The notes beneath the pieces are model-generated. The model saw nothing but the letters and a program-made list of their open reading frames with translations, was not told the origin of the DNA and ran no database searches. DNA of 64,000 nucleotides, from the NCBI GenBank assembly GCA_037903355.1, contig JBAJFE010000032.1:620001-684000 (forward strand), written 5' to 3'. Positions within the stretch are counted from its first letter, which is position 1; every line of letters begins with the position of its first letter. The stretch is from Trichuris trichiura (Eukaryota; Nematoda; Enoplea; Trichinellida; Trichuridae). This document shows positions 10,582 to 58,524 of this stretch, in pieces. The translations under genes and the position numbers were made by a program.

Positions 10582-12868
10582 TGACAGATGAAAAATGCAG
10601 ACGGTTAAACCAAAGGAAGTGAACTGTCAATGGATAAACGTTTTCAAAGTAATCAGCCTTCTTATTGGTACATTTAAGAACAACAAAAGTTGAGCCGCCT
10701 ACTTGATGTTATTTACATTGACATATTATGAGCAAATATCTGTCAAAAGTACAAGAAAAAAATAAACGCTTGAAAGATAATCTTTTCAAACACTGACAAC
10801 AAATTCAACGCGAACAGTTGATGCTGGAATGAAAGGTTTCCAAAAAAGGTCAACAACAGAAGTCTCACCTTGCATTTCGGTAAACACCTCAATCGGCCGT
10901 CGAGACAATCAGATAGCAGGATTCTTTAAAAATAATGAAATATTAGCTGTCGAAACGAGAGCAAATATGCTGCCGCAACAAATCGTTAATTGAGCGGAAA
11001 GCTGACGAAAGGTCACCGACAAATAGAACAATCTAAACAGGAACGAAAAGGCTAGCAACCGTTCGCTTGTCGTTAAAACCCCGTTTATGATAAGAGAACA
11101 AGCAAACAGACGGCTGCCGCTACTTCCACCCACGCATCACGACAACAATTATTGATTATTTATACTGTTGCTTTCAAAACTTGGATAAATTGTTTTCGGG
11201 GACGTTTGCACGCGTATGGCCGAACCTGGTCGTTAGAATTTCCCTTTTTCTACTCAACACAAAGTTGCTGAATAGCCTACGCTAGAATAAGACGCGCAAT
11301 TTGATGCGCTGCTTAACTTTTGCGGGAAAATAAGCTTTTTTTTAAAAAACAGCTTGCTTTCGCAATTATTTGTCAGCACCGCACCACCGAGCTGCGAAGT
11401 ATTATTACTGGATGCTTTAATTCATTTCCCCGTTCTTAGATAACATCGTTTGTAATTAAAGCATAAGTGCACGAGCAATAGGTCACTAGAAGCGAAAATG
11501 TTAAATACATAAAGACAATAAAATATTAACTCGCAGGCTAACTATTTATCCGGCTGCAAAAGTTTGCTCGGATTGTTCAGGACAGGATTGTACCTGAGCA
11601 TGATGTATACAAACCTGAGAATCCTTTACTCGTTGAGGAGGCTGCAGTTGTTAATTTTTGTCAGTGGGGAAGAGCAACCGTCCGTTTTCGTGTAACGCAA
11701 CATGTATATTCATTTAAGCTGAAACATTTTACGAAACACACTAAGCATAAGGGAATGCGGGTTGAAGCACAGCGTTCGGAAGACTTCCGCGTGATAAATG
11801 ACTCTCGAGAAGTAGGCTGCAAATAAACAAATGGTATGGACGACTTGTACAATAAGTCGCCTCATCCGAAAGCATGTTTTATGTTTATTAAGCCGTAATG
11901 AAAGCTTTCTTGACTTTTCGGCTCCCCGACTTCGGCTGACTCTTTCGCCTAGTTGTCATGGGATTATTTGCTACCCTGCGCATCATTTTCTAAGTACTTC
12001 GACGCATTTTCGTTTAGAACTTATCTTTTAATTTTCTATTCTCTGTTGCGTTTATTGTTGGTCTTTAAAGTAGAAATGGATAAATGTGCTCATTGGTAGG
12101 CTGCCAACGTGAACAGTAGATTCCCCAAAGCTTCGTATTTTGTCGTCAAGTGAACTTTTCTAGGTTTGGTACTAACTTTTTAAAGAATAGTTATACCATG
12201 TACGTATGAGTGCGTAGTCAACACTATGGAGTACCAGCAGATCAAGTAATCATTCTTTTCTCTTCAAATGAAGAGTTAGAACATCAGGAGCCAAAAATTG
12301 CTTTGTTACATTTATGACAGTAGAGTTTTATCAGCAGTCTTTGGCTGAAAGTTGTCCGGACACTTATACGTTGGCGACTGTGATGTGAGCCAACGGCTGG
12401 AGTAAGGACTCCTCAGAGAAACTAAAGTTAGAGGTTTGTAGCAATGCCGAAAATAATTCTGCAAGTGGAAATGAGAGAACTTGTACGCAAGTCTGCTGTG
12501 AAGTGAAATGGAAGACAGAAGCGAGAAAAATGGCTACCATTAGTGTATTATACTAATTATGTCATTCATATGCTTAGCGTGCTGCTTTGACAACAAGGGA
12601 ACAGTATGTTACGATACGTTGGTAGCAGTAACTAAGGCAGTATCTGACGAGAGCGCAAAAGAAAAAGCGCTATTGAACCGAGCACATAGAATCATGTCTT
12701 TTATGGAAAGCGAACATTTGTGAAAGGACGTACTACAAAGCACTAAGTTCAACAATAAGCGATTGGTTCTTGTTCATGCTGTATTACGCAGTTTTCAGTC
12801 CAAAATTAATGCACTCAATAAGCCGTTGCTTTTTGTGAGATGATGCACAGTGTTAAACAGTAAAACTT
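10582..12868. other. Intergenic, nothing recognised
   Basis: Only short ORFs without recognisable domains. No transposon ends or RNA genes were identified. It presumably includes the WSB-like promoter just beyond 10581. Confidence 0.55.
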
Positions 12869-12951
12869 GACGGAGGTGGGATTCGAACCCACGCCTACCG
12901 GAGTAGAATGCGGCCTTAACGCATCGCCTTAGACCACTCGGCCACTCCGCC
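12869..12951 (-). tRNA. tRNA-Leu (AAG)
   Basis: An 83-nt type II tRNA. The acceptor stem is GGCGGAG/CTCCGTC with one G-U pair. The D arm is GGCCGAGTGGTCTAAGGC. The anticodon stem ATGCG/CGCAT closes the loop TTAAGGC, so the anticodon is AAG. There is a long variable arm (TCTACTCCGGTAGG) and a GTGGG TTCGAAT CCCAC T arm. TTTT follows a few bases downstream on the minus strand. Confidence 0.95.
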
Positions 12952-48108: not shown

Positions 48109-50300
48109 TAGCCAACTATTGAAGTCACTTGATCGTCCAGCATATTGAAAGTTAGGCGATCAGGCTCTTCTCCTATTTTGTTTTTTGGTGCCAACGTTGT
48201 TCTCCATCCTTGTAACATTTGAATTGCAGTGTTGTTTCCGAAATGTGAATAATGTCAATAGTATAGATATAATCGATGCAAGGGCAACCTGTTTCTTAGG
48301 TGCACTGATGGAAAAGCAACTTTACCGACTGAAGAAAGTTCACAAGCTCACCCGATGAGTGCGGCCACAGCATCATTGGTCTATTAGTTGTTCTTAAGTT
48401 TGATTGTGTATGTGATCATGAGAAATATGAAAATAAAACTTGTGAAAATTCTTAATATTAAGTACTGTAATAAAACAATCGACATTGGGGACATCCCCCT
48501 TTGTCAGGTGATCAATCATTTTTTGGGGACCTTATTACTGTTCTACATTGGGCAGTTCGTTTCATTTTGCTGTGCTGTACGAATGTGGAGCAGTCTTTCA
48601 CTACGGTTAGTCTGCGATAAGCTCTAAATAGCGGAATGCTATATCGTTATTTGAATTTTGTTTTACCATTAGTACAATATATACGCAATGGTATAGGCAT
48701 CACAATATTCGTGCTACTGTCAGCAGACGTTAGCTTGTTTACTGTTAACGTCAGCTATACGCAAATGTTTCGAGTTAAGTAACACTGAAACATCACAGCA
48801 GTGTTTCTCGTTCTCAGGGTCCCATTACTTCATGCTCTGCTTGGTTGATGCTATCCCACAGCAAGGGAGGGTAGAGAAAGATCGGGATTCCGAAATTCTT
48901 GGACGTGAGCACGCCCAAGCTCCGCGTTTTACTGCTAAAATTGTTGCTCATAGTATTTTGCTTTTCCATGCATTGGTTCACACTCGTATGGATGTCACGC
49001 GGACAAGAGGTAATCACTAGCCTGATGGGGGACGCGCTTCAGTAATGCCGAGCGTGCTCCTCGGCGCGGAGTGCCACCAGTTACCATCTTGGAAAACACT
49101 GGGATAATGAGTGACGAGTTCGCCGTCAGAATTGAATTTCGTCATTTCGTAAGTTCTGCAGTTCAATTAACTTTGAAACTAACTTACATGCACATCAGAT
49201 AATTTATACTGTTCACAACAAAATTCGAATTTGACTGTGAGACTAACAATAACGCAGCTTCCGACTGACCGTTTATTGAGTCTACAGAATCTCTAACAAC
49301 GTGTCGTTATACGGTAGAATGTGCAGGTACAAATGAACTCCCTGCTCATCATTAGTTCCAGCTTCAGCCGGAACATATACATTATGCCACCTGCTTCGCG
49401 GTCGGGACCGAGTGACTACCTCTGATTAGGCATTCTCTATTGCGGATACGCAAAAAGACGACCCAAACATTAGAGGCATTAGCGTTTTTTTGGCATATCA
49501 GCATTTGTACGTCCATGCTTTACCAATTGACGAAAACGTTCAGCTTAAAAAAATTTCTTCAAGAAGAAAGAGACGGTTAACTTAGCGAGGTTGTGAATGT
49601 AAACATGAGAAGAAGAAGCTAAAAGCTTTCTAGACCACCAGGACATTCTTTTACATGAAGTGAAATCTTCAAAAAAAGTTTTCACAAGAGTTATACGTCG
49701 TAGCAAATGGGTGCTGTCCCCATTGCGTTTTTAGAAGTTCGTAAAGTTTAGATAGCCTAAAACTTTTCGATCAGCAATGAGGATTAATACGTACCCACTA
49801 CCAAACATCTCCAGCATTAGCACTTGCAATCTATTATGGTATTATGGCTGAAGATAATTTATTCAGTTTGAAGTATTACTAATCAGCTTGGCCGAAATGA
49901 CCATTAAGCTACTCTCACGTAGCAGTGCCAGTAAAGCGTTTATCTTACACAGCGTAAAACGCTTGTTACGCTAAGTACATGACGATCATTTATGCCTGCG
50001 GTTATTCTATCACTTGCAACGCTAAGCGTTACGTGGCGGTGTTCGTATAAAATCTCTTGTGCACTTTTCAAATTCGTCACGTCTAGTCGTGCATTTTGAC
50101 AGCCGGCCAGAAGTTCCCCTCTGTTTAAAATTTTATTGAACTTTGCTACATAGGTACAACGCGTAGTTGTGTTTGGTGAGCTGTGCTATTTAGCTTTTTT
50201 GTTTGTTAAGGTCGTGTCCTGATACTAGCTTGATTTTCCACTCTCTCTTGGGAAATATTGGCGCTGACCAAGTGTTTCGAAGCAATTAAAAGAGCGAAGG
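48109..50300. other. mua-3 3' UTR and intergenic region
   Basis: AATAAA hexamers at 48432 and about 48471 are candidate mua-3 polyadenylation signals. No ORF, RNA gene or transposon end was recognised in the rest. Confidence 0.5.
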
Positions 50301-50618
50301 AGTGCTTTCATCAATTCGATTATCTATGTTCGAACTATGGGCGATGCTAATGACGGAAAAGGCAATTTCCAGAGGCTAAAGTCGAATAAAATATTTGACA
50401 GCAGTCTAACCGGCCATTTCCGTATCTCCGGTGGAAACGTATGCAGCTATTGCAAAAAACTACGTATAGGAAATGTTAGCTCTGTCGGTGCTGCTCTGAA
50501 TTCAAGTGTCGGTGATTAGTTCTCTGTATCCTCCGTACCTCAATGGTGCACTCGGATAGCTGTTTAGCCAAAGGTATGAATGAACGTAGCTTCTTAATGC
50601 TATACCCTATTCACCATG

Positions 50619-50686
50619 TTACTATGATGAGTTGAATTACCGTTTGAAAATTCCTATGAGATAAAGAATGGCTGTTGGCTGACCCT
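50619..50686 (+). ncRNA. C/D-box snoRNA candidate 1
   Basis: Box C ATGATGA at 50624-50630, box D CTGA at 50679-50682. It begins 50 nt after its intron's 5' splice site, and box D ends 64 nt before the 3' splice site. The internal segment TTGAATTACCGTTTGAAA is shared exactly with candidate 2, so the two are paralogues. The terminal stem is weak. Confidence 0.65.
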
Positions 50687-51328
50687 CTAGAGCCCTGCAG
50701 CCTCAGCTTTCAAATTGGTTTTTTTAGTAAAATGATTTTATTTCAGGTATCCAGTGGAATCTCAAGTAAGGCATGCTTTGGAGCGATGCAGGGATCCAGC
50801 TTCTTGACGCACAATGTTTGATTGCATAATGTTTCAAGGCGCAGGACTTCAGTGTGCATCAGTTAGGTCAATTAGAGAGTATCAGGAAGCCCCTTTTTGT
50901 CACCAAAATGAATTGGCTTCGACAAGTTGGGTTTAAAGATAAAGTAAGCGTTGCTAGTCCTATCAGCTTTTGTGGGATGAAGTGTTTGCAGTATGTCAAG
51001 CGCTGCGCGTTCGATTGCAAAAGTAGGCGCGACACAGATACGGAAAGTTGTCGACGAACTCAAACGCGGCAGTTTCGATCACAGTGGAATTTTTCCTAGT
51101 TCGAAATGCCTTAAAGATTTGAACTGATGAAATATGCAATTCTCCGGCAATAGTTCTTCGGGGAGTGCGTCAGGGTGTTTCGCAGAATTTGTGAGCTCAT
51201 CTGCCATACAACGAGAAAGTTCACCCAACGGAGGGCCTCTCTACGCCCACTGTATCAGCAATATCTACAGTCCATCGATTACTGGTACGACATGCGCTTT
51301 TAATTTTATCTTTAAGCTACTCATCATA

Positions 51329-51395
51329 TCACTGTGATGACTTGAATTACCGTTTGAAACTTATTATGAAATAAGCTTTGGCACTAACTGAACTT
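51329..51395 (+). ncRNA. C/D-box snoRNA candidate 2
   Basis: Box C GTGATGA at 51334-51340, box D CTGA at 51388-51391. It lies 49 nt after the donor and 63 nt before the acceptor. It shares the TTGAATTACCGTTTGAAA segment with candidate 1, but the 3' guide before box D differs (GCTTTGGCACTAA against GAATGGCTGTTGG), so the two would have different targets there. Confidence 0.65.
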
Positions 51396-51635
51396 CTATA
51401 GCTGCGCAATATTAATCTTTCCCATACTTTCTTTTTAAAATTTCTTTCTTTCAGGCATCCAATTTGCATTTCAATAGAGCCCAGAGTTCTTAACTATTTT
51501 GTGCTCACCATGCATACTGTAAGTCTGCAGGATCACGGAAAATCCTGAAAGTGCAAGTTCGTTATCTCCGCTGCGAAAGTGGCACTTCCAAGGTAAGTCT
51601 TGGTCTAATGTAAAATTGAATGCTCATTTTGGCCT

Positions 51636-51711
51636 AGAAAATGATGACCATTAATTGCTACTCTTGAATTCGACTGATGAGAAATAGCCACCTTGTTGCA
51701 TCCTGAATATT
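51636..51711 (+). ncRNA. C/D-box snoRNA candidate 3
   Basis: Box C ATGATGA at 51641-51647, internal CTGATGAG at 51674-51681 (overlapping D' CTGA and C' TGATGAG), box D CTGA at 51703-51706. It lies 48 nt after the donor and 66 nt before the acceptor. AATTGCTACTCTTGAA and the internal box region are shared with candidate 4. Confidence 0.7.
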
Positions 51712-51935
51712 CCTAATTTCTACGCTAAGTTTATTCCGTTTATTTGATTACTGACGTTTTCAACTTTTGCAGAAAGTCTCTTTGACCATGCGGACCCAGC
51801 GTGAATAGGGTTGCACCAAAAAAGTTATTGGTCGTCAGTCCAAGTCAGTGCAGTCGGCAGTTGGTAGGCAAATGGGGCACATTAACCGCGTAAGCATAAT
51901 ACCAGTTTCAGTAAACTAAGTTTTGCGTAGTGAAA

Positions 51936-52013
51936 AGAAAATGATGACTCCTAATTGCTACTCTTGAACGTTTCTGATGAGAAATAGCCACCATATACCG
52001 TGTTCTGAGTCTT
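51936..52013 (+). ncRNA. C/D-box snoRNA candidate 4
   Basis: Box C ATGATGA at 51941-51947, internal CTGATGAG at 51974-51981, box D CTGA at 52005-52008. It lies 51 nt after the donor and 65 nt before the acceptor. It is a paralogue of candidate 3, with the same region after box C and the same GAAATAGCCACC after the internal box but a different sequence just before box D. AAGA and TCTT around the ends could form an external stem. Confidence 0.7.
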
Positions 52014-52330
52014 AACCTTTCTAACAGAAGCAGACGTGTTGCTTCATTTGTTTACGTGTTTTTTTGCTTGCAGGAACGAATTGGTCGTCCGCGAGGTGCT
52101 GCAGCGCAAAGACATTCGCAGTGAACAAACCAGCCGTTGCTCGACATGACAGGAAGGGCGATTGTAAAATGCTTCAGTCAGCTGTATTCGCTTTGTGCCA
52201 AAACAAAACTGCCAACTTTATTGTGCATTTCAATTGCAGTAGAAATTTGCATTCCAGTACGAATACACAACGTTTGGCCCATTTAGCTGAGCCTTTGGCG
52301 TTTCGCTAACTTTAACAGGCGTTCCACGTG

Positions 52331-52711
52331 GCACCATTACTTAGTTTTCTATTGCGGTTTACTACGAGTCACCAGTGAGAGCAAATCAATTTTGCAAAGC
52401 ATTTCGTGACTTGCTGGCATAGCTTTCGCGCTTCTTCCTAACGTATTGCCAAGTAGATTGGTAGCACCGGTGTAATGAGCTCTTTGTCTTAAAATTTCCG
52501 TGACCAAATTTTATCCTGTTCGTTGTTCGAAATCACCCAAATATAAGCCTACTGGAAAACCTATCCGCGAGTAGCAAAAATGTTAAGCCAAGGTTTATTC
52601 TGTTGCAATAAATTGCTCAGTAGGGCATCAGCATAAAAGGGCGTATTATGTTGGTTAGAAAACATTGATTTGTTCTGATCTTGATTGTTGATTACTTACT
52701 GTTCATTAGCC
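52331..52711. other. Intergenic, probable promoter region of the ETF-QO gene
   Basis: No ORF or RNA gene was recognised. It lies directly upstream of the ETF-QO start at 52712. Confidence 0.45.
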
Positions 52712-55172
52712 ATGCCGGGCTTATTGAGGAAGGCCGGCGCGGTCTATCAGCTGTCAGCCCGTCGACTACTTTCAAGTGAAAGAAAAATCACTACGCATTA
52801 TACGGTTGTGCCTCGGGAAACCGATCCACGATGGAAAAGTACGCTATTTTGTGGCTATTTTTCTGAACATTTTGCATGAACTGTTGTTAGACATCGACAT
52901 GAGCCGAGTTTCGGACGATGTCGACGTCGTTATTGTTGGCGCTGGACCTTCGGGTTTGTCGGCAGCGATCAAGTTGAAACAGTTGAGCGCGGTAAACAAA
53001 AAGGACCTGCGAGTGTGCATTGTTGAGAAAGCGTCGTACGTAGGTAAATACTTTTTCTAGCCGTCATAATCTGGATATCTGCCTTTTTTCGCAGGTGGGC
53101 ACACGCTGTCAGGTGCTTTGATAAAGACACTTGCGTTGGACGAACTCTTTCCTGACTGGAAAGCTCTTGGGGTCGTCTTGCTTATTTTTCTTGTTCTGTG
53201 TGACAAAAAGAATAATTCTAGGCGCCAGTTTATCAGAAAGTAACTGAGGAACGTATAGGAATTCTTACCAAAAATTATCGTATTCCTGTTCCCGTAATCC
53301 CCGGCCTCCCGTTAAAGAACTCCAATAGTTACATAGTTCGTTTGGGTCACCTGGTCAAATGGTTGGGAGAAAAGGCAGAAGAATTGGGCGTAGAATTGTA
53401 TCCAGGTTACGCAGCCGCTGAAGTAGGTGTCGTATCTTGAGTCAGCCGCAAAAAGTGGCAAGTTGCGCTTCACAACAGGTTCTATACGACAAAAGTGGCT
53501 CCGTAAATGGCATTGCAACGAACGACGTTGGAATCGCTAAAGACGGTTCCCCAAAGGTGCTTTTTATTCCATAATACTAATTTTCAGTTGCTGCGTAAAA
53601 CATTTCAATATTGGCACCTTCTCCTTCGAATGACAACCTCTTATTTTCACAGCCAACTTTTGAACGCGGAATGGAACTTAGAGCAAAGTGTACGGTATTC
53701 GCAGAAGGCTGCCGAGGTCACTTAACGAAAGCTCTAAGCCAAAAGATGGGCTTACGGGAGAAAAGTGATCCCATGACTTACGGAATTGGTTTGAAGGAAC
53801 TATGGGAACTTGACCCTGCCAAACACCGACCCGGCTACGTCGATCATACGCTCGGTTGGCCCTTGGTACGTTTTTCTTACGCAATGTCAACTTTGCGATA
53901 ATGTGCAAATTTTCCCTATCTGCTCGTCGCTTATTATGACTAGTCAGTGGCCAAGTGAAAATTTGAAATTGTTGTGACCTAAGTACGCTTAAGGCTTACG
54001 ACAGCTATGGCGGCTCGTTTATGTACCACATTGATGAAAATGGTCATCCTTTATGCTCGCTTGGACTGGTGATCGCGCTGGACTATAAGAACACATATAT
54101 CAAGCCTTTCGAAGAATTGCAGCGATACAAACTGCATCCATCGATTCGAAAGTTCCTGGAAGGCGGCAAGCGCATCTCATACGGTGCGAGAGCGTTGAAC
54201 GAAGGCGGATTTCAAGTACGAAGCCGTTTTGCGGAATTTTAATCTTTTTTCTCGTTTTGTAATTTTTAACATAGTTCACGTTTTAAGGCAATTCCGAAGT
54301 TCACCTTCCCTGGCGGTTGTCTGGTTGGATGCACTGCTGGTTTTCTAAATCCCGCCGCCTTAAAGGGTGTTCACTACGCAATGAAGAGCGGTATGTTAGC
54401 TGCGGAGGCAATATTTGAGTCGTTGTTTGACGGCAGCGCGCCTTCGTCCACTGGTGCTTTCCATTTTTTTTGCGTAATATGCGAATCATGTTTTCCTTTT
54501 TAAGTCGAGCCTGTTCGATTTGAGGAAAAGGTAAAGAATTCGTACATTTGGAAAGATTTAAAAGCGGTGCGCAACGTACGACCATCTTTTAATTCAGCCT
54601 TAGGCATGTATGGTGGCCTGCTCTATACCGGAATGTTTTACGTGCTCGGCAGAGGACTTGAACCATGGACGCTCAAGCGTAAAGGTATGATTTGTAAGTC
54701 GAGTGGGGGATTTGTTGTTCATACCAGTTGTTTTTAAGAGCCGGACAATAAGGCGACTAAGCCGTCTAAGGAATGTAGGAAGATCGATTATCCAAAGCCG
54801 GACAATGTGCTGACATTTGACTTGTTATCGTCTGTCCACATTACGGGAACAAATCACGAGCATAATCAGCCTCCTCATTTGACGCTTCTTGATGACGATG
54901 TGCCATTGAAAACGAACCTGCCCGTCTACGACGGCCCTGAATCGCGCTACTGTCCCGCAGGTAGCAGTTAGTTTTATCAGGCGTTTAAGTAAGCGTAAGT
55001 CTTTCAAGGAGTCTACGAGTTTGTACCAGACGAATCTGGGAATTCCTACCAACTGCAGATAAATGCGCAAAATTGCATACACTGCAAAACCTGTGACATA
55101 AAAGACCCACTGCAGAATATAAATTGGGTCACTCCTGAAGGCGGTGGTGGTCCTGCCTATGACGGAATGTAA
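52712..55172 (+). CDS. ETFDH: Electron transfer flavoprotein-ubiquinone oxidoreductase
   Basis: Eleven exons (52712-52838, 52891-53043, 53095-53171, 53222-53422, 53479-53556, 53653-53865, 53994-54215, 54288-54453, 54505-54684, 54739-54960, 55009-55172) join to exactly 601 codons including the stop, the usual family length. The protein starts with a basic, Ser/Arg-rich mitochondrial presequence, followed by the FAD Rossmann motif [14 protein letters not shown]. Family blocks [44 protein letters not shown] and MKSGMLAAE follow. The C-terminal 4Fe-4S ligands are in YCPAG and [12 protein letters not shown], and the conserved end is [11 protein letters not shown]. It passes electrons from ETF to ubiquinone at the inner mitochondrial membrane. 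No lesions were seen. C. elegans calls the orthologue let-721. Confidence 0.96.
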
Positions 55173-55938: not shown

Positions 55939-58524
55939 TCATGTGCGGGGATTATTTCTTCTTTCTCTTGCTCCATGTGTTCTTCTATCATGTCCAATTA
56001 TGGAGTAGCAGTCGTAGCGCGTCACTATATTTGTCCAAATTTCACTTACATCTGCTCTTTGGTCGCGGTTATATGTGAGGTTGTGTCTTATGTAAAGGGC
56101 TTCTTTGATTCTTCTTAATCGTAGGTTCTTTTCATAACATAAGACTTTTGGGTTGAGCGTCTGGTTACATTCTGTGGCATGTTCTGCCACGGCAGAGGCC
56201 TGTTTGGCTTTTTCCATGGTGATTATCGGGTTTAAAATTGGTCTTCCTCTTTGTGTAGTTGCATTGCCACTGCTATTGAGCATGGCCTTCGCATTGTTGT
56301 AACTTGCAAGCTTTTTTAAGTGTTCATTAAATCTATGTTCTAAAGTGTTCCCCGTTTCGCCAATATAAATTCCTCAGCAAGAGCATTCCATTGCGTATAC
56401 TAATCCTGTCTTCTTGTTTGTTGGGATTTTTTTGTCCGAGCGAAGAATTGATCTGATGTTAGGGGAGCTCTTGAAGAAGACTCTGAAACCTAACGTTCTT
56501 CCTAGCCGGGTAATTTTTTCTCCTAAGCTAGCCACATAGGGAATAACTAAGCAAGGTTGGTGCGAAGCGTTTTCTGCACTAGGTTAACGTTTGCGAAGCT
56601 TGTAGTTGAATACTTGGCTAATAAAGGACCTGGGATATCCGTTCTTGTAGAAAATTTTTCGAATGTGGTTGAACTCTGGTTGAAGATATTCAGGACTGCA
56701 TAATTTGATTGCTCGGTCAATCGTTCCGGAGAGGATACCTCGCATTACTGATCTGGGGTGATGTGATGAAAAGTTGGGGTACTGATCCGTGCGCGTGGGT
56801 TTTCTATATACTCTGGTTTTTAGCCCATCGTTTGTGCGGATAATTAAAGCGTCTAGAAAGGGTAGGGTGTTGTTGTCTTCTTTTTTCATTGTGAAAACAA
56901 TTTGGTTCGGGCGGATGTTGTTGAGGAATTGTAAAAATTGCTCTTCCTTTCCAGCTTTAATAATTACGAATATGTCGTCTACGTACCTTTTGAAAAGGCG
57001 TGGAGCTATGTGTCTCTCTACCGTTGCGAACATCTGTCTTTCAAAGCTTTCCATAAATATTTCTGCTAATACTGGTGATAAGGGGCTGCCCATAGGTACT
57101 CCGCTAGATTGTTTGTAGTACTTGTTATCAAAAGTGAAATGATTGCCTTCTTCCATGCAAAAGGAAACCAATTTGACAATGTGAAAGGGATTTAGTTTAG
57201 TTCTGGTGGGTAGACTTGTGTCTGCATTGAGGAGATTGTATAGGATCTCAAGTGTATCTGATATGGAGATGCTCAGGAATAGTTCTTTTACGTCATAACT
57301 AGCCAGAATCTCATCTGGTTCTAGGTAGTGATTCCGGATTTCGTTGACAAAAGTTTTGCTATTTTTGATAAAGGACGGCTCTTTGCCAGTAAGCGGTTTG
57401 ATGATCGTTCCTAAGTATCGACTGAGTTCACTTGTGATACTATTAATGGTGGAGACTATTGGTCTCATTGGAATCCCTGGTTTGTGTACTTTTTGGAGAC
57501 CATAGAGCTCAGGGGGTCTGAAGTTCGATGCAAACTTAAGATGTGTTATCATTTTGCTGATTTCAGGTTCTTTGGTCTCTGTGGCATATGTGATGAGGAG
57601 AGATCGAAGATTTTTCAGGGAAGTCTCTGTAGGGTCAGTGGGTAAAGGGGCATAATTGTTGGTGCTTAAGATAGCTGTCATTTTTTCCATTTAGGTGTTT
57701 CTGTCTAGTCGAACTATTTTATTCCCTTTATCGGCTTTAGTGATGATTCTGTTCGGTTGATTTCGAAGCTGATGTAGGCAGTTCATCTCATGTCGACTTA
57801 AGTTAGGAGTGGCGTTGAAGCGGTGATTTAAGATTAATGTAGATAAAGTGCTTTTAATCTGTCTGGCTCTTTGTGGGTCTGTCGAAGATTGAGGTAATGA
57901 TATCGAGAATGGGTGGTCGTTTAGGGGTGGGAACGAAGTTCAGTCCCTTTTTTAGTATGGCCTTCTCATTTTCACTTATAGAGGAGGAGCTGAGGTTTAC
58001 TATTGTTGTATTTAGTTCCGACTCAGTGGTCCTTTGTAAGCTATTGCTGTAGACATTTAGAGAAGTCACCGGGAAACTCGCCTGAAGTCTATCGAATTTC
58101 CTTTTTAATACCTGTTTTTGTGTCGTGCAAACTGTTCCTGCGGCCACATCCACATGTCTGACCAAGGCTTCGTAAATTGCTCTCTGTAGTTGGTTTCTGA
58201 GGTAACTGAGTGTTGTTGGAGTTTGCTCTCAAATTCGCTAGTGTAAATCTGTTGTCTTATAACGTTTTTGAGCAGAGATAATCCAGCGGAAAATAGGATT
58301 CGTTTTGAGTGACTATCCACGTTCTGACCCCATTTTAGTTGAAAGCACTTCGGTAGAATTCTGTGATCTCTGCATTTCAGTAAGAAGGTCAGTTGGCCTT
58401 GAGTAAGACCCGCTTTAATACGTGTATGCTCCAAATATCTGGCCGCTGACAGGAAGGGTGTTCCGTATACACCCTGTATAGTCTTGAAAATGTGGTTTCT
58501 TGGTACGGGAGCGTATGTTTTCAT
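55939..58524 (-). pseudogene. Penelope-like RT / GIY-YIG polyprotein, broken
   Basis: Read from 58524 leftwards. The N-terminal segment starts MKTYAPVPRN, encoded by the element's own end extension. A frameshift at about 58130-58160 and another near 57860 precede the ADKGN motif (about 57725). A TAA at 57691-57693 interrupts just before the long RT frame (57690-56584). The RT frame has conserved YGLQKVHKPG, ASYDVKELFLS, GVPMGSPLSPVLAE, the catalytic YVDDIF and PFLDALI. The GIY-YIG domain ([10 protein letters not shown], about 56340-56370) is preceded by an in-frame TGA at 56374-56376 and continues to about 55939. The RT catalytic residues are intact but the ORF as a whole cannot be translated. 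Confidence 0.93.

Follow-up and report, generated by a model that had tools for sequence, protein, structure and literature searches.

The four short introns that lie between about 50.1 and 52.6 kb of a 64,000-nucleotide window of the Trichuris trichiura genome (contig JBAJFE010000032.1, 620,001 to 684,000 of the forward strand; window coordinates are used below) raise the question of what this gene is for, since each intron carries a pair of motifs resembling boxes C and D. We consider it very likely that this region is a noncoding spliced host gene with one box C/D snoRNA per intron, the snoRNAs belonging to two duplicated guide families. An intronic C/D host gene is supported because box anatomy, geometry, noncoding exons, paralogous pairs, and guides at two ancient methylation sites all agree. 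The boxes, their spacing, the 18S pairing, and the lack of coding signal can be read from the DNA itself. This probable host gene is ordinary in kind, a sound case of a well-known gene type. New here are an snR77/SNORD65-type D' guide in the first snoRNA pair that pairs with the genome's own 18S rRNA and a U24-type D' guide in the second, with a predicted LSU target.

A first-pass annotation of this DNA had described one C/D-box snoRNA-like sequence in each of four introns, with box C 48–51 nt after the donor and box D 63–66 nt before the acceptor. A box scan bore out the four intron lengths and both distances. All four introns have GT...CAG ends, as judged from sequence only, and each has one box C and one box D:

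50574..50746, + strand: intron 1, 173 nt, GT...TTTCAG
51285..51454, + strand: intron 2, 170 nt
51593..51772, + strand: intron 3, 180 nt
51890..52073, + strand: intron 4, 184 nt
50624..50682, + strand: sno1, box C to box D (C 50624-50630, D' TTGA 50644-50647, D 50679-50682)
51334..51391, + strand: sno2, box C to box D (C GTGATGA 51334-51340, D' 51354-51357, D 51388-51391)
51641..51706, + strand: sno3, box C to box D (D' TTGA 51664-51667, C' TGATGA 51675-51680, D 51703-51706)
51941..52008, + strand: sno4, box C to box D (D' 51964-51967, C' 51975-51980, D 52005-52008)

Box C reads ATGATGA in introns 1, 3, and 4 and GTGATGA in intron 2, and box D is CTGA throughout. In introns 1–4, respectively, the donor is separated from box C by 50, 49, 48, and 51 nucleotides, and box D is followed by a further 64, 63, 66, and 65 nt of intron. 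These are the only four places on the + strand of the window at which RTGATGA is followed by CTGA at 48–100 nt; the − strand has a single such pair, which is without intron context. Among 60 first-order Markov sequences of 64 kb, the mean number of C–D pairs per strand was 1.7 (maximum 8), and it was 0.27 (maximum 2) when intron context was required, that is, a GT 41–60 nt before the pair and a pyrimidine-rich YAG 50–79 nt after it. These criteria were set after the four pairs had been seen, making the null generous to the finding. Four C–D pairs in 1.4 kb are far outside this null.

The internal boxes are less uniform. D' is TTGA in all four snoRNAs, and C' (TGATGA) is present in sno3 and sno4, has one mismatch in sno2, and is absent from sno1 in a strict scan that allowed at most one mismatch. 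No terminal stem flush against the boxes was found in the flanks inspected. This does not exclude the sequences from the C/D class because C/D snoRNAs without a stem are known. Possible external stems occur around sno2 (AGCTA/TAGCT) and sno3 (TAGAAA/TTTCTA), and another around sno4 (AGAAA/TTTCT, within 51635-52030) was noticed by eye; those of sno3 and sno4 may serve as stand-ins for the absent terminal stem.

The sequences between and around the introns were assigned as follows:

50046..50051, + strand: TATAAA, a possible promoter element
50747..51284, + strand: host exon 2, noncoding
51455..51592, + strand: host exon 3, noncoding
51773..51889, + strand: host exon 4, noncoding
52074..52630, + strand: host exon 5, its 3' end tentatively placed near 52630 from AATAAA at 52607

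Joined together with an assumed start at 50150 and end at 52700, the exons have a longest ATG open reading frame of 63 aa, compared with a mean of 64 for shuffled sequences, so the earlier statement that they lack coding signal holds. A donor-like site was also seen at 50766, within exon 2. The TATAAA at 50046 and the AATAAA at 52607 could bound the transcript, and another AATAAA lies in exon 1 at 50385.

The outline of the transcript is where the strongest alternative enters. An ETF-QO gene, recognized by Pfam PF21162 and the solved structure 2gmh, lies downstream on the same strand with its start codon near 52712, and the four introns might belong to the 5' untranslated part of this gene, or the host might share an operon with it as the first cistron. 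The end of an acceptor-like TTCATTAG, at 52709, lies two bases ahead of the ATG, and the AATAAA at 52607 is about 100 bases upstream of the ETF-QO start, as in nematode operons, in which the spacing from AATAAA to the next gene is of about this size. The interval 52607-52712 has a spacing reminiscent of operons or trans-splicing. On the other hand, an AATAAA ahead of the ETF-QO start suggests a separate 3' end, but only weakly, since exon 1 has one as well. Three donor-like sites lie between 52074 and 52712. None of this is decisive. On balance, we regard a joint transcript with ETF-QO as a real but rather unlikely possibility.

Within the separate noncoding host gene that we favor, the snoRNAs fall into two paralogous pairs (1/2 and 3/4). 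The first-pass annotation had proposed such pairs, with one half kept and the other guide differing, and the alignments agree: it is the D' half that has been kept and the D guide that has diverged. With gaps counted as differences, sno1 and sno2 are identical at 22 of 24 positions from box C to D' and at 6 of 15 in the D guide. For sno3 and sno4, the corresponding values are 24 of 27 between C and D', 19 of 19 between C' and CCACC, and, for the D guide, 4 of 12.

Comparing the guides with the species' own rRNA, a check suggested in the first-pass annotation, gave pairing with 18S in register with U602 for the D' guides of the first pair:

50634..50643, + strand: sno1 D' guide, pairs with the genome's own 18S 598-607, D+5 = U602
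51344..51353, + strand: sno2 D' guide, 18S target as for sno1

The 18S sequence used was taken from the rDNA array of this genome. Both guides consist of GAATTACCGT before TTGA and form 10 pairs with 18S 598-607 (9 Watson-Crick and 1 G-U). This is a guide of about 10 nt beside the D' box, and U602 faces the fifth nucleotide from that box, as the D+5 rule demands, in both snoRNAs. The duplex energies are -19.1 kcal/mol for sno1 and -14.9 kcal/mol for sno2, and for neither was any of 1000 shuffles as good at the site. When sites across the entire rDNA unit are ordered by raw score, U602 comes second for both guides, and 18 of 60 shuffles of the sno1 guide equal its best score somewhere in the unit. 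The argument for U602 is carried by the register and the known site. From the numbering of the GCGGTAATTC loop, we take U602 to be equivalent to human Um627 and yeast Um578, so that the guide selects the SSU position of the snR77/SNORD65 family (CL00057). This equivalence leans as well on matches to Rfam snoR77Y that span the same guide. These matches reach 18.3 bits on sno1 (E 5) and 20.1 bits on sno2 (E 1.8, with agreement at the guide and not at box C), well short of the family cut-off of 52. The target of this guide family is given as Um627 for human HBII-135, Um578 for yeast snR77, and Um580 for Arabidopsis snoR77Y in PMC3511168.

The drifted D halves of the same pair can also be placed on 18S rRNA:

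50671..50678, + strand: sno1 stretch before box D, 8 bp with 18S 589-596, directly 5' of the D' target; would be accessory pairing or a second guide
51375..51386, + strand: sno2 segment ahead of box D, pairs with 18S 584-596 over 12 bp, with one bulge on the rRNA side

Pairing as good as that of sno2 was found in 1 of 1000 shuffles and in 3 of 189 other 18S windows, while for sno1 the counts were 48 of 1000 and 27 of 189. The D halves of the first pair may be rRNA clamps, but this is not established by just two cases, of which one is weak. When all four D guides were compared with the readable part of the rDNA unit, in which most of the LSU is unreadable, no match above shuffles was found; the rDNA-unit shuffles covered six of the eight guides.

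The second pair points to a different rRNA:

51655..51663, + strand: sno3 D' guide core TTGCTACTC, U24-type by its identity with sno4; predicted target the LSU Am2350 equivalent
51955..51963, + strand: sno4 D' guide core TTGCTACTC, as in sno3
51688..51692, + strand: sno3 CCACC, as in U24; could, by conjecture, pair with LSU GGTGG beside the D' target

Rfam SNORD24 aligns with sno4 over its whole length at 21.5 bits (E 2.2), below the cut-off of 41, and the matched letters include TTGCTA (D' guide) and CCACCA (D half). Rfam pulls sno3 toward SNORD36 instead (19.7 bits, E 7.9), but its guide and CCACC are common with sno4. For LSU pairing we used a conserved LSU segment in its generally known form, on which the D+5 rule selects what we take to be the Am2350 equivalent (human numbering). 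On this segment the D' duplexes of sno3 and sno4 were no better than shuffles (123 and 172 of 1000 as good, respectively), and the CCACC pairing was not above them either (200 and 133 of 1000). Because the D' energies do not exceed shuffles and the genome's LSU is mostly unreadable in the copy examined, the predicted LSU target of sno3/sno4 is less certain than the 18S target of sno1/sno2. The adenosine in question is listed as Am2350 (human U76), Am1451 (AtU24), and Am1447 (yeast U24) in PMC3511168. D' of sno3 and sno4 reads CTTGA. Yeast U24 modifies two neighboring nucleotides, and in an artificial snoRNA it was the sixth nucleotide on which the C'/D' motif of U24 acted (PMC5389607). If sno3 and sno4 behave like yeast U24, the neighboring G in LSU is a possible site. 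The second guide of U24, for Cm2338, has been lost in this pair: beyond CCACC, the sequences of sno3, sno4, and U24 all differ from one another, and CCACCAAGAT with CTGA 0–8 nt after it occurs, in exact letters, nowhere in the searchable genome.

Searched at Rfam cut-offs, the window yielded three tRNAs only and no snoRNA match. Two of the tRNA genes are identical in sequence and inverted (321-393 on the − strand and 477-549 on the + strand, 66.5 bits each), and the third is at 12868-12951 on the − strand. The window also holds a reverse-transcriptase reading frame (56584-57690, − strand), whose best T. suis matches are 64% over 85% and 80% over 81% of the query, with others from T. muris among its many Trichuris relatives. 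The snoRNA scores raise the possibility of decayed copies or chance box arrays without function: no cut-off was reached, E-values were above 1, and the D guides have diverged. Comparable scores come from unrelated families within that stretch, such as ZEB2_AS1_1 with 20.8 bits and snR69 with 20.0 bits on the other strand, and the best U14 and U18 matches of this genome are also below their cut-offs. Decay or chance is nevertheless very improbable given that four pairs occur where 0.27 would be expected per 64-kb strand and that the D' guides have been kept, in register with known methylation sites.

The constant distance to the splice sites had been noted in the first-pass annotation. The spacing is real, but it is not peculiar to the host gene. 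For comparison, five Rfam families were searched in this genome, giving 12 loci (4+2+1+3+2), all below cut-off. Such matches alone prove little, since control genomes of bacteria and archaea likewise had matches below cut-off for these families. Four candidates were kept: two U18 (U18a and U18b; 31.4 and 27 bits), one U14 (32.6 bits), and one SNORD36/37-like (L101, 29.7 bits). Among those dropped, a SNORD24 match (L038) scored 32.4 bits, above sno4, and was without an RTGATGA box or a TTGCTA guide; three others of that family (L039-L041, 22.7-24.8 bits) gave no SNORD24 match at E 1. Three SNORD15 loci (L097-L099, 22.8-25.6 bits) and a SNORD36 locus (L100, 29.8 bits, with the cut-off at 30) showed no C/D pair in the setting of an intron.

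The distance between box D and the acceptor is 67 nt in U18a, 65 in U18b, 65 or 71 in the SNORD36/37-like candidate, and 51 or 88 in U14; from donor to box C there are 45, 46, and 56 nt in the first three. U18b lies in a gene with a protein disulfide isomerase (PDI)-type thioredoxin domain, and the reading frame of the flanking exons fixes the ends of its intron, leaving 46 nt ahead of box C and 65 nt after box D, while the acceptors of U18a, U14, and the SNORD36/37-like candidate were picked among several YAGs. Three of the four kept candidates are therefore 65–67 nt before an acceptor, one of them fixed by the reading frame, and U14 does not fit the spacing clearly. A scan of both strands of 30 kb around U18a, U18b, and U14 found exactly these three C/D pairs in intron context; it requires an RTGAnGA-like box C and misses weaker ones, so that L101 (ATGATGT) was added by eye. 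In vertebrates, the optimum lies some 70 nt upstream of the acceptor, which is 50 nt upstream of the branch point, and the splicing factor Aquarius aids assembly (PMC8178906 and PMC8162545). With several snoRNAs, one per intron, at 63–66 nt, the whipworm host comes close to the optimum given in the former. Because the other candidates and the vertebrate optimum show a similar distance, the spacing is most simply ordinary intronic C/D snoRNA geometry, kept tight here. Least probable of all is that each snoRNA has its own promoter inside an incidental intron, like the tRNA-like UM2 element, whose 47 C. elegans ncRNA loci include 40 snoRNAs (PMC2527325), given that donor and box C leave room for just 48–51 nt, that the acceptor spacing is constant, and that no A or B box was found by consensus on the + strand of 50000-52400.

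Two of the comparison loci showed further features. U18a lies in an intron-like stretch whose flanking exons have no evident coding signal by eye (L057:5240-5700), the next exon running for about 76 nt before a GTAAGTG donor-like site, and this could be another noncoding snoRNA host. The PDI-like gene (L059:3926-4059 and L059:4960-5021) has, in addition to the intronic U18-like C/D sequence, an H/ACA candidate about 1 kb upstream on the same strand (ceN88 26.3 bits and SNORA57 23.5, cut-offs 40).

The guides of the favored host gene seem to be rare in the genome. The sno1/sno2 guide with a D'-like TGA occurs at 11 places, compared with 14 for a reversed control. Both places in the window have a C box at most 25 nt upstream and CTGA 18–50 nt downstream, as do 0 of the 9 outside it. 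For TGATGA followed by the U24-type TTGCTA and TGA there are 52 places against 23 for the reversed control. The 50 outside the window form 49 loci, of which 45 are without RTGATGA or CTGA at a fitting distance; the others (L070, L071, L076, and L085) have both boxes and neither TTGCTACTC nor CCACC, and are doubtful U24-type places. A looser guide pattern (59 places; 0 of 12 inspected outside the window with a C box) was replaced by the stricter one. A DNA search with 1.7 kb of the locus found no second copy in the 72.7 Mb and 62 contigs of the genome, its sole match being 53 bases at 85% to part of exon 3. The four snoRNAs may be the genome's only guides of their type, although guides with changed letters would escape these patterns.

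From what is known of the family, the host would be transcribed and spliced, and each intron would act as the precursor of one C/D snoRNA, released after splicing and trimmed to its C/D core to give the mature RNA. The D' guide of sno1 and sno2 would direct fibrillarin to methylate 18S U602, and sno3 and sno4, through their U24-type D' guide, are predicted to have the LSU counterpart of human Am2350 methylated. The drifted D halves of sno1 and sno2 may act as clamps on the rRNA immediately 5' of the D' target instead of guiding a second methylation. The 63–66 nt between box D and the acceptor would reflect a rule of placement, known also from vertebrates, to which other C/D snoRNAs of this genome seem to keep. 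More tentatively, we suggest that a strict, vertebrate-like rule of 63–67 nt before the acceptor also governs this dedicated noncoding host and that, after duplication, the D halves ceased to guide at a second site and were either retained or remodeled to clamp the rRNA 5' of the D' target; taken as a whole this is a speculative proposal, and we would expect it to fail somewhat more readily than to hold.

No title on a Trichuris or Trichinella snoRNA host gene was among the literature matches listed. The analysis attaches named, testable methylation sites to a whipworm locus that is blank in Rfam at cut-offs, and the locus offers a case of one snoRNA guide kept and the other drifting after duplication. 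A constant acceptor distance in this nematode, which we take to be placed outside the C. elegans group, bears on the age of splicing-coupled snoRNP assembly.

With snR77, HBII-135 (SNORD65), and snoR77Y of clan CL00057, sno1 and sno2 have in common the D' guide core GAATTACCG and the 18S target nucleotide. Unlike in those RNAs, the remaining sequence has diverged, there are two copies, and the D half may pair with 18S 584-596. From U24 (SNORD24, RF00069) and U76, sno3 and sno4 retain TTGCTA in the D' guide and CCACC, and they are predicted to act where human U76 and the U24 of plants and yeast do (on the conserved LSU segment); unlike U24, they are without the Cm2338 guide. As for the host, the first-pass annotation had called it a gene of the GAS5/UHG type. 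Vertebrate GAS5 and UHG/SNHG1 have exons without coding signal and one snoRNA per intron, as in the whipworm host, and are also marked by a 5'TOP start and nonsense-mediated decay; the label stands for the first two features only. Drosophila Uhg4 is likewise an lncRNA host, with seven intronic snoRNAs, and unlike the whipworm gene it includes H/ACA snoRNAs (PMC9710044). Compared with the GAS5, UHG, and Uhg genes, the whipworm host is set apart by its two tandem paralogue pairs from two guide families.
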